Below are positions 16,942 to 17,932 of a stretch of 64,000 bases of DNA, one piece after another. The stretch's first letter is position 1. The number at the start of each line of letters is the position of its first letter. Below the pieces are notes generated by a model. The model was not told where the DNA came from and did no database searches. It worked only from the letters and a program-made list of their open reading frames with translations. The translations under genes and the position numbers were made by a program. Source of the stretch: Ruegeria sp. R13_0 (GTDB lineage Bacteria > Pseudomonadota > Alphaproteobacteria > Rhodobacterales > Rhodobacteraceae); the NCBI RefSeq assembly GCF_017743995.1, contig NZ_JAGHRB010000011.1, forward strand, positions 62,001 through 126,000. Reading direction: 5' to 3'.

Positions 16942-17273
16942 GCTTCGCCTCAGCCCGCTCGGGTTTTGTGATCTTTTTTCAACGGATAGCACGAAGCGTG
17001 AACATTTTCCAAGCGAATTGACCCTAAGTCTGAAAACGACACCGCCATCCTGCGCGCGACACAAAGGACGGTTTGCGACTTCGAAAAGTCTGAAATCGAC
17101 ACTTTTATGAACCGATTTTAACCATGTTTTTAAGGTGCTTACAGATTCAGAAAGCGTTGCAAAAACTGCATAGGACACATGCAAAAAATGCTATTGCGCG
17201 GGCAAATCCTCGACACTAGATGCCGCTCAGATCGCAAGATCAAATGTTCACACAAACCAGAAGGAAACAGGAT
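16942..17273. other. 332-bp intergenic region between ruvC and the DUF1127 gene
   Basis: This divergent intergenic region is AT-richer than its surroundings. It holds a 17-nt direct repeat (17026-17042 and 17086-17102), a GACTT-CGAA-AAGTC palindrome at 17077-17090, and TTAACCAT at 17118-17125, which matches the half site used by the cell-cycle regulator CtrA. A weak promoter for the plus-strand DUF1127 gene may be TTGCGC (17194) with TAGATG (17217) at 17-bp spacing. No additional gene was seen. Confidence 0.5.
17026..17102. repeat. 17-nt direct repeat, exactly 60 bp apart
   Basis: AAGTCTGAAAACGACAC at 17026-17042 and AAGTCTGAAATCGACAC at 17086-17102 differ at one base. Their starts are 60 bp apart, close to six helical turns, which fits two binding sites of one protein on the same DNA face. 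Each copy contains GTC-N7-GAC, a weak dyad. The sites lie between the divergent ruvC and DUF1127 genes. No known regulator was matched. Confidence 0.45.
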
Positions 17274-17489
17274 ATGGCTGCACTGGACTCGACCCGCATC
17301 GCCACCACTGGCTCATTCGGCCTCGTTGGCCGTATCGGCGCATTTTTCACATCGGTCGCACATGCCGCCGCCGATTGGAACGACGCCCGCGTAACACGCA
17401 ACGTGCTGACCGGTCTGAGCGACCGCGAACTGGATGATATCGGCCTGTGCCGCGGCGACATCGACGCCCTCGCCGACGGCCGCCGGTAA
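17274..17489 (+). CDS. DUF1127 small protein
   Basis: The 71-residue protein ends with the DUF1127 (YjiS-like) pattern: arginine-containing NVLTGLSDRELDDIGLCRGDID. An amphipathic N-terminal part precedes it. DUF1127 proteins are small and basic, often with stress-induced expression. In Rhodobacter sphaeroides the relative CcaF1 binds RNA and affects RNA turnover; the same role here is inference. The start at 17274 follows AAGGAAACAGGAT; an upstream frame of 18 codons is not supported. An anti-Shine-Dalgarno hairpin and a terminator follow directly, an arrangement known for alphaproteobacterial cuckoo RNAs. Confidence 0.85.
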   Translation: MAALDSTRIATTGSFGLVGRIGAFFTSVAHAAADWNDARVTRNVLTGLSDRELDDIGLCRGDIDALADGRR

Positions 17490-17490
17490 G

Positions 17491-17573
17491 ACGCCCCCCT
17501 CACTATACGCCCCTTTCTCCTCCCTGTAGGGGCGCAAAGAAACACCGCGATCCGAAAGGCCGCGGTGTTTTCT
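17491..17573 (+). ncRNA. candidate CcsR/cuckoo-like sRNA downstream of DUF1127
   Basis: Just after the DUF1127 stop a hairpin forms from CGCCCCT (17508-17514) and AGGGGCG (17528-17534). Its loop contains CTCCTCCC (17517-17524), one base short of the CCUCCUCCC loop motif of the Hfq-dependent CcsR/cuckoo sRNAs. A terminator hairpin follows at 17541-17569. In Rhodobacter such RNAs are processed from transcripts that also carry a DUF1127 gene. The gene order, loop motif and terminator are seen directly; that a stable RNA is made is inference. Only one loop is present, whereas family members often have two. Confidence 0.6.
17541..17573. terminator. bidirectional intrinsic terminator
   Basis: AACACCGCG at 17541-17549 pairs with CGCGGTGTT at 17561-17569 around an 11-base loop. 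TTTTCTGTTT follows on the plus strand, ending the DUF1127 and sRNA unit. On the minus strand the stem is followed by TCTTT, so it can also stop transcription of the small membrane-protein gene that ends at 17588. Confidence 0.85.
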
Positions 17574-17587
17574 GTTTCAGCTTGTGC

Positions 17588-17932
17588 TTAGTAAAGCACT
17601 TTGTTGAGCTGAACCGAGAGGAACTGTGAAACCGGGTCGATCTGCATGATCCAGGCGCCTGCCTGTTCGACCTGTGTGCCTTCTTTCAGGCTGTCGATGC
17701 GGTATTGATATCCAGAGGGGCCGAGGCTGGACAAAAGAAACGCTTTAAACGCGAAAACCGCCAGCAGGGTAAACAGCAGAACCTTGGCCGGAACCGCCGA
17801 GCGAACCCTTTGCGGCTTCATCACCACCAAGCCATCTTTGCGCATCGTTGCGCGATAGCCTTTGCTGAGCTTCGAGTGCTTCTTGTTCAGGCGCTGAACG
17901 CGCTGATCAAATTCCAGTTGTTTTCCCGCCAT
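17588..17932 (-). CDS. small single-pass membrane protein of unknown function
   Basis: No named family was recognised. From the ATG at 17932 (MAGKQLEFDQRV) the product has 114 residues: a basic N-terminal half (KKHSKLSKGYRATMRKDG), one strong membrane helix (VLLFTLLAVFAFKAFLLSSL, about 53-72) and a C-terminal domain of about 40 residues, probably periplasmic. An ATG ten codons upstream is possible, but adds a glycine-rich stretch. The gene stands alone between the DUF1127 unit and prmA, and ends at the shared terminator. I see nothing that points to a function. Confidence 0.65.
   Translation of the reverse strand: MAGKQLEFDQRVQRLNKKHSKLSKGYRATMRKDGLVVMKPQRVRSAVPAKVLLFTLLAVFAFKAFLLSSLGPSGYQYRIDSLKEGTQVEQAGAWIMQIDPVSQFLSVQLNKVLY

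Follow-up and report, generated by a model that had tools for sequence, protein, structure and literature searches.

A candidate anti-Shine-Dalgarno RNA with a single hairpin in a Ruegeria DUF1127 3' UTR, probably a reduced relative of the cuckoo/CcsR RNAs

In the marine bacterium Ruegeria sp. R13_0 a small DUF1127 gene, of a family known from stress responses, is followed by a conserved hairpin with an anti-Shine-Dalgarno (aSD) motif in its loop. With a probability of roughly 0.55 we read this hairpin as a predicted single-hairpin aSD RNA module carried by the 3' UTR and related to the cuckoo/CcsR RNAs, reduced and in part eroding. The hairpin is probably a reduced relative of a known stress-RNA family rather than something wholly new and the locus probably works like a cuckoo RNA whilst failing both the strict cuckoo definition and the Rfam thresholds. 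The window, by which is meant the whole 64,000 nt stretch of DNA that was analysed, lies in G000:C2, and the host genome is 4.68 Mb in 56 contigs.

Layout and folding of the locus

The DUF1127 gene (17274-17489, forward strand, as are the features that follow it) encodes a protein of 71 aa with a net charge of -2, which matches PF06568 with an E-value of 3.6e-14 and whose nearest named relatives, among the best 80 of at least 285, are from Ruegeria with no more than 83% identity. It is transcribed away from ruvC, and 3' of it come the aSD hairpin (17508-17534), which folds with a stem of 17508-17514 and 17528-17534 around a 13-nt loop (17515-17527), and then an intrinsic terminator (17542-17577), which folds with a stem of 17542-17549 and 17561-17568 and has a U-rich tail. 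The aSD motif of the loop, CUCCUCCC, occupies 17517-17524 and is defined by its sequence, its orthologs and the rate of change of the loop core; 5' of the hairpin, site rates mark out a further element (17501-17506) with the genus consensus CACTCA, which reads CACTAT in the window. The original prediction placed gene, CUCCUCCC loop and terminator within 85 nt of one another and its coordinates are right, the distance from the DUF1127 stop codon to the end of the terminator being ~84 nt. A small convergent gene, for which no Pfam family match was found, ends at 17588 with prmA beyond it, and the terminator is probably common to the DUF1127 gene and this convergent gene.

The hairpin has 7 bp and folds at -13.3 kcal/mol (z -3.4), with none of 200 shuffles as good, and hairpin and terminator together fold at -32.3 kcal/mol (z -3.6 against shuffles). 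In folds of the mRNA from either 17225 or 17274 to 17577 the stem of the hairpin is paired with a probability of at least 0.92 and 7 of the 8 bases of CUCCUCCC are unpaired. The terminator at 17542-17577 is absent from the list of a simple terminator scan because its loop is longer than the scan's loop limit of 8. One pair of the terminator stem is A-U in 28 and G-C in 26 of the 54 genomes of the genus, with zero mismatches. Hardly any covariation is seen across those genomes in the hairpin stem, GCCCC/GGGGC, where the same pair is found in 35-46 of the 54 at each of five positions; the stem is conserved as sequence, so that its structure is not proven by compensation.

The aSD hairpins of the genome

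A classic CIN1 operon is present elsewhere in the host genome (locus L001, contig C11), consisting of a DUF1127 gene followed within ~310 nt by six CCUCCUCCC hairpins, the sixth of which is the terminator. The operon matches Rfam CcsR1 with an E-value of 4.2e-11 and 51.8 bits, the gathering score being 65.3, and ar14 with an E-value of 4.7e-8, also below the gathering score. All 54 genomes of the genus have a CIN1-type DUF1127 homologue, and the 50 CIN1 loci that could be parsed (those of G005, G016, G030 and G047 could not) have 2-8 CCUCCYCCC motifs within 480 nt. As this operon is also in the genome, the window locus is an addition to CIN1 and not a minimal substitute for it; the earlier description of the locus as a minimal form is fair, yet a partly eroding second locus fits better.

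There are seven DUF1127 genes in the host genome in total, and no CCUCC or CUCCU was found in the 250 nt downstream of the five that belong neither to the window locus nor to CIN1. A hairpin model derived from CIN1 detects the CIN1 array and two further loci, whilst the window hairpin scores only 13.9 bits with it (E 0.28 in 64 kb), a chance match scoring 15.4 bits. A MAFFT alignment of the hairpin and terminator was also tried as a model seed and dropped, the 5' arm of the stem having been misplaced. The aSD-hairpin sites of the genome include two different DUF1127 genes, an hsp20 gene and a free-standing pair on a 97-kb contig. The hsp20 gene (PF00011; L227:1018-1532, which is G000:C44:44203-44717) is followed by a cuckoo hairpin, CTCCTCCTCCC, and then by a terminator with the loop UUCCUCCAG. 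Across the hsp20 3' UTRs of 30 of the 54 genomes (L260-L289), CCUCC lies within 70 nt of the stop codon in 27, mostly in the terminator loop, which is nearly constant, and CCUCCUCCC is found in 4. The free-standing cuckoo pair (L224, about 1500-1600; G000:C6:3820-3893, on the 97-kb contig C6) has the loops UCUCCUCCUCCCU and ACCUCCUCCC, the second hairpin being a terminator, and upstream of it are TGCATTGCTGCATTGCAG and a promoter-like TTG...CTATGT, both CIN1-like.

Conservation within the genus

An ortholog of the window's DUF1127 gene, with ruvC divergent upstream, occurs in 54 of 54 genomes, and in 53 of them the stretch from stop codon to terminator folds into a hairpin with 5 or more pairs, the hairpins of a few genomes (e.g. 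G038, G046 and G052) looking unlike the others. According to the fold of each, the loop contains or adjoins CCUCC or CUCCC in 39 of the 54. When motifs are counted over the whole stretch from stop codon to terminator, beyond the loop alone, exact CUCCUCCC is found in 17 of the 54, CCUCC in 33 and CUCC in 43, and the longest form present is CCUCCUCCC in 9, CUCCUCCC in 8, CCUCCC in 15, CCUCC in 1 and CUCCC in 9, the remaining 12 having neither CCUCC nor CUCCC. Relatives with the gene but without the loop had been put forward as evidence against the original prediction, and such cases are in part observed, exact CUCCUCCC being absent from 37 of the 54 and CCUCC from 21. The forms are scattered across the tree of the 54 genomes, the orthologs with the full CCUCCUCCC falling in several clades, and with midpoint rooting the deepest side clade, of three members, has CUCCUCCC throughout, and the motif occurs on the other side as well.

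Rates of change were taken on a tree of the 54 genomes made from upstream and coding sequence with the UTR excluded; columns with fewer than 40 letters were omitted and the columns were put into classes by hand. The eight loop-core columns have 6.6 changes per site and the stem 5.9, against 16.7 for the linkers and terminator loop, and a one-sided rank test of loop core against free columns gives p 1.5e-4, for columns picked after the per-site values had been seen and a free set that omits the CACTCA columns and column 18. Sites of the CACTCA element change 2-9 times each, where most of the linker sites on its flanks change 11-19 times. Thirteen four-fold codon sites have 5.8 changes per site, about the loop-core rate; they are few and probably codon-biased, and give no support to a rate contrast. 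In loops 2-6 of CIN1 most sites have 0-1 changes (53 of 54 loci aligned, G029 left out), and judged by these alignments the window loop is under moderate selection, much weaker than that on most CIN1 loops. The loop of CIN1 hairpin 1, with up to 9 changes per site, stands far above loops 2-6. Taken alone, the 8-mer CUCCUCCC means nothing against chance (1 in the window, 2.4 expected from shuffled windows); it is conservation, with the hairpin kept in 53 of 54 genomes and a loop that is slow compared with the terminator loop, that lifts the hairpin above chance.

It is possible, if not the likeliest outcome, that the locus is a relic, a two-hairpin cuckoo locus decaying under relaxed selection since CIN1 supplies the same activity. 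The CIN1 gene is indeed in every genome, with CIN1 hairpins in the 50 that were parsed, and the picture at the orthologous loci is in part one of decay, with the 12 of 54 lacking CCUCC and CUCCC before the terminator, with intermediate forms common, and with CCUCC in the terminator of G016 and G024 alone within the genus. However what remains of the loop is still constrained in comparison with the linker sites, and among the near relatives of the window genome G025, G026, G029, G042 and G045 keep 8 or 9 of the 9 motif bases, even though G001 and G044 have lost the motif.

An unlikely alternative is that the hairpin forms a structural 3' end only, which stabilises the mRNA or aids termination, and that its C/U-rich loop has no role in pairing. 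The position next to the terminator and before a convergent gene agrees with this, as do the 14 of 53 genomes with a hairpin whose loop neither contains nor adjoins CCUCC or CUCCC, but the loop core changes at about the rate of the stem, 2.5 times more slowly than free sites including the terminator loop, and the full CCUCCUCCC is retained in 9 orthologs over several clades. A loop core as slow as the stem argues that the hairpin is not kept for stability alone.

The DUF1127 protein

The 54 DUF1127 proteins beside ruvC have net charges of -4 to +1 (median -2), whereas the CIN1 proteins, parsed for 19 of the 54 genomes, range from +3 to +6; in the host genome the two values are -2 and +5. In the available part of PMC12501420, CcaF1 is described as binding RNA and other DUF1127 proteins as having reported protein partners, and whether such proteins bind RNA or protein is treated as unsettled; the portion of PMC10253847 available reports that CcaF1 influences the maturation of the RNAs downstream of its own gene. 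A CcaF1-like RNA-binding role for the window protein would appear doubtful from its sequence, because it is acidic, unlike the DUF1127 protein of CIN1.

This charge difference also bears on a very improbable reading in which the hairpin is a cis element, bound in its own mRNA by the DUF1127 protein for self-regulation. A DUF1127 gene is joined to aSD hairpins at two places in the genome, and the effect of CcaF1 on RNAs behind its own gene would be a precedent (PMC10253847, as far as available), but the proteins beside ruvC are mostly acidic where those of CIN1 are basic, and orthologous DUF1127 genes without the hairpin exist. About as improbable is a rut-like Rho loading region, in which pyrimidine content from CACTCA to the loop and not aSD pairing would be conserved. 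To the eye most orthologs have much C and little G between stop codon and loop, and those that have lost the motif often still have a C/U-rich loop, but the conserved GGGGC arm keeps the C-run paired, which would hinder Rho, and a strong intrinsic terminator lies directly 3'.

Beyond the genus

The outgroup consisted of 60 named loci past the 20 closest (L058-L117), drawn from the best 80 of at least 285 relatives. The gene is next to ruvC in 57 of the 60, the exceptions being L090 and L091, and L059, whose sequence is too short. A hairpin was found in only 1 of these 60 loci, L059 from a MAG; in eight others CCUCC or CUCCC occurs no more than 130 nt past the stop codon, by eye not in such a hairpin. 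The DUF1127 gene therefore does not need the hairpin. L059 has UCCUCCUCCCU in its first loop and CCUCCC in its terminator; the protein of this locus lies closest to those of the genus, a placement that is not strongly supported. With CCUCC in the terminator of L059 and, within the genus, in the terminator loop of G016 and G024 alone, and with CUCCUCCC on both sides of the tree, these sequences point to an ancestral two-hairpin form; an ancestral hairpin and terminator that both had aSD loops and later eroded would be the simplest account.

Upstream region and promoter

Two conserved blocks lie between ruvC and the DUF1127 gene. The first, TTGCAAAAACTGCATAGGACACATGCAA (17157-17184, no strand assigned), contains a GCAT...ATGC inverted repeat and from its conservation in the genus may be a regulator site; it belongs to an upstream element, TTGCAaAAA..GCATAGGACACATGCAA, in which most sites of TTGCA and GCATAGGACACATGCAA changed 0-4 times over the 54 genomes. 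The second is promoter-like (17194-17221, forward strand), with TTG at 17194-17196, a spacer of 19 nt and CTAGAT at 17216-17221. Its genus consensus is CTTG-N19-CTANAT, most genomes having CTTG and the window ATTG, and over the 54 genomes TTG has 0 changes and the constant CTA-AT positions 0-3, the spacer being variable. A scan with the sigma-70 consensus gave no match at the window locus; the block may be of RpoH type, a sigma-70 promoter being possible too. The CIN1 operon of R. sphaeroides is transcribed from an RpoHI/RpoHII promoter (PMC10253847, available part). The corresponding block upstream of CIN1 in 30 genomes of the genus is ATTGTGCA...CTATtTT, 3' of TTGCTGCATAGCAGCA, and that upstream of hsp20, again in 30 genomes, is TTGAAC...CCCAT. 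Further from the gene the intergenic region has two near-identical repeats, GTCTGAAAACGACAC and GTCTGAAATCGACAC (17028-17042 and 17088-17102), which are partly kept in the genus.

Predicted mechanism and targets

If the locus does encode a single-hairpin aSD RNA, the putative conserved promoter, 53-80 nt 5' of the start codon and presumed active, would give rise to one short mRNA that ends at the terminator. Its 3' part of ~65-75 nt would persist as hairpin plus terminator, as do CcsR and other 3'-UTR sRNAs of R. sphaeroides, and would by the same analogy probably be set free where RNase E cuts the single-stranded, CAC-rich linker; the CcsR RNAs are themselves cut from the ccaF1 3' UTR with RNase E and CcaF1 (PMC8307010 and PMC8625941, in the parts available). 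The open CUCCUCCC loop is then predicted to pair with GGGAGGAG ribosome-binding sites and so block translation, on the model of AbcR1/2 and NfeR1. In AbcR1/2 a single hairpin loop with CUCCUCCC suffices: according to the accessible text of PMC8844928, repression is lost when two bases are changed in either the loop or the target and returns with matching changes. The CCUCCUCCC loops of NfeR1 silence the start region of ntrB (PMC10746234, likewise in part).

The genome of the window has 27 sites with GGGAGGAG 3-9 nt 5' of an ATG, and 2 when the pattern is reversed. ORFs of less than 60 aa were dropped before the Pfam search (8 of the 27 GGGAGGAG sites, 3 of 26 control sites), and some of the ATGs retained at GGGAGGAG sites, e.g. 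L298, are possibly internal. ABC-transporter parts account for 6 of the 19 GGGAGGAG ORFs (five binding proteins and one ATPase) and acyl-CoA synthetase-like proteins for 3, whilst behind a different strong SD used as control, AAGGAGAA, only 1 of 23 ORFs is an ABC-transporter part, an NMT1-type binding protein. The difference in ABC-transporter share has a Fisher p of 0.034, at a Pfam cut-off of 1e-5 for the 19 ORFs and the last three controls and of 1e-10 for the other 20 controls; the enrichment agrees with published aSD targets and does not discriminate between the RNA of the window locus and those of CIN1. The predicted targets are likely to be shared in part with the CIN1 RNAs, genes for ABC transporters and acyl-CoA synthetases standing out, and what would distinguish the window RNA is its promoter, and hence its timing, rather than its binding partners.

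Duplexes of the loop with the seven GGGAGGAG start regions tried have energies of -18 to -24 kcal/mol, and that with the start of the convergent gene -12.2 kcal/mol. The best of the seven belongs to the gene for a DUF2189 membrane protein (L290, G000:C1:48282-48298), whose start region pairs with all 13 loop bases at -24 kcal/mol. Auto-regulation by pairing with the start region of the DUF1127 gene itself, at only -6.9 kcal/mol, was rejected.

A wider reading

The hairpins behind hsp20 make a wider 3'-UTR module worth testing. Tentatively, and with rather long odds for the proposal as a whole, the aSD hairpins might be a portable 3'-UTR module of Ruegeria, the genes that carry it shedding aSD RNAs that jointly set a shared repressor of GGGAGGAG mRNAs; the ruvC locus would then be a capture nearly confined to the genus, with its loop eroding under the cover of CIN1. 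Were this so, every such gene would yield an aSD RNA under the control of its promoter and unrelated stress genes would be linked; several stress genes would contribute aSD RNA from their 3' UTRs in addition to the multi-hairpin CIN1 array, and the genus would offer 54 natural variants of one locus, in some of which the gene is followed by the loop and in others not. The locus unites a mostly acidic DUF1127 protein with an aSD hairpin in one genus and almost nowhere else among the best 80 of at least 285 relatives. As the hairpin behind the gene is nearly genus-confined, the two can be separated by comparison or deletion, and the locus is a handle on whether DUF1127 proteins act via RNA or via proteins, a question raised in the available part of PMC12501420.

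Comparison with known systems

No paper combining any two of ruvC, DUF1127 and 3' UTR was found in a literature search, and the main text of a paper on the sRNAs of R. pomeroyi (PMC4809877) makes no mention of CcsR, DUF1127 or ruvC. A search with the Rfam families, to which the original prediction had looked for support, found nothing at gathering score in the window and no CcsR1 or ar14 match up to an E-value of 10 in 17000-17900, where anti-hemB was the sole family matched. The anti-hemB RNA of Burkholderia (RF02837) is like the window locus in having one hairpin, with the loop UCUCCUCCCUG, followed by a terminator hairpin; it comes from another bacterial class, and the match (25.4 bits, E 0.0015 in 901 bases) has about half of the gathering score of 49.5. 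Membership of this family was dropped, matches of ~25 bits lying at many unrelated places in the 54 genomes: weak matches occur in at least 9 of 14 control genomes, eight unrelated places that were folded have no such loop, and no match at threshold was found in the window or the 54 genomes. At the orthologous 3' UTR G013 and G024 score 23.1 and 24.6 bits, the window locus not being among the matches listed.

The double-hairpin RNAs (RF02278) of Burkholderia cenocepacia, e.g. ncS27, share with the window locus two hairpins and CU-rich unpaired stretches complementary to ribosome-binding sites, and one of these very short RNAs can be processed from a longer form; there is no Rfam match to them at the window locus, and the available part of PMC5688073, from which this is taken, links none of them to DUF1127. 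NfeR1, or alpha-r14 (RF02344), resembles the locus in its aSD loops that silence start regions and in the ABC-transporter mRNAs among its targets, and differs in having three hairpins, each with CCUCCUCCC, and its own promoter (PMC10746234, available part). AbcR1 and AbcR2 of Sinorhizobium meliloti have in their aSD1 the identical CUCCUCCC in one hairpin loop, a trait of the alpha-r15 family that the window hairpin has as well. According to the accessible text of PMC8844928, they bind Hfq, are 114-121 nt long and come from independent genes, not from a 3' UTR, and they have other hairpins as well as a second aSD; the SuhB-like three stems and second aSD UUCCCCUC of the family are absent from the window locus, which has two stems and no UUCCCCUC.

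Cuckoo RNAs are defined, in the available parts of PMC4504443 and PMC10746234, by 2-4 adjacent hairpins with CCUCCUCCC loops and by stems without sequence conservation. The window locus has a single motif hairpin and no motif in its terminator loop, G016, G024 and the MAG locus L059 coming nearer through CCUCC in the terminator; its loop is UCUCCUCCC, with the full motif in 9 of the 54 orthologs; and its stem is conserved within the one genus compared, for which a wider set might differ. The original prediction had seen in the locus the layout of the CcsR/cuckoo RNAs, and whilst membership of the family fails on the one hairpin, the 8 of 9 motif bases in the loop and the Rfam result, the order of DUF1127 gene, aSD hairpin and terminator is real. 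A further comparison is with ccaF1-CcsR1-4 (CIN1) of Rhodobacter sphaeroides (RF02791). That operon has four sRNAs, and the CIN1 of the host genome six hairpins, where the window locus has one, and the window locus differs further in its 8/9 loop, its acidic protein, its place beside ruvC and the lack of a CcsR1 match in Rfam; the two are alike in that a 71-aa DUF1127 gene stands directly upstream and that gene, hairpins with aSD loops and a Rho-independent terminator make up one unit.
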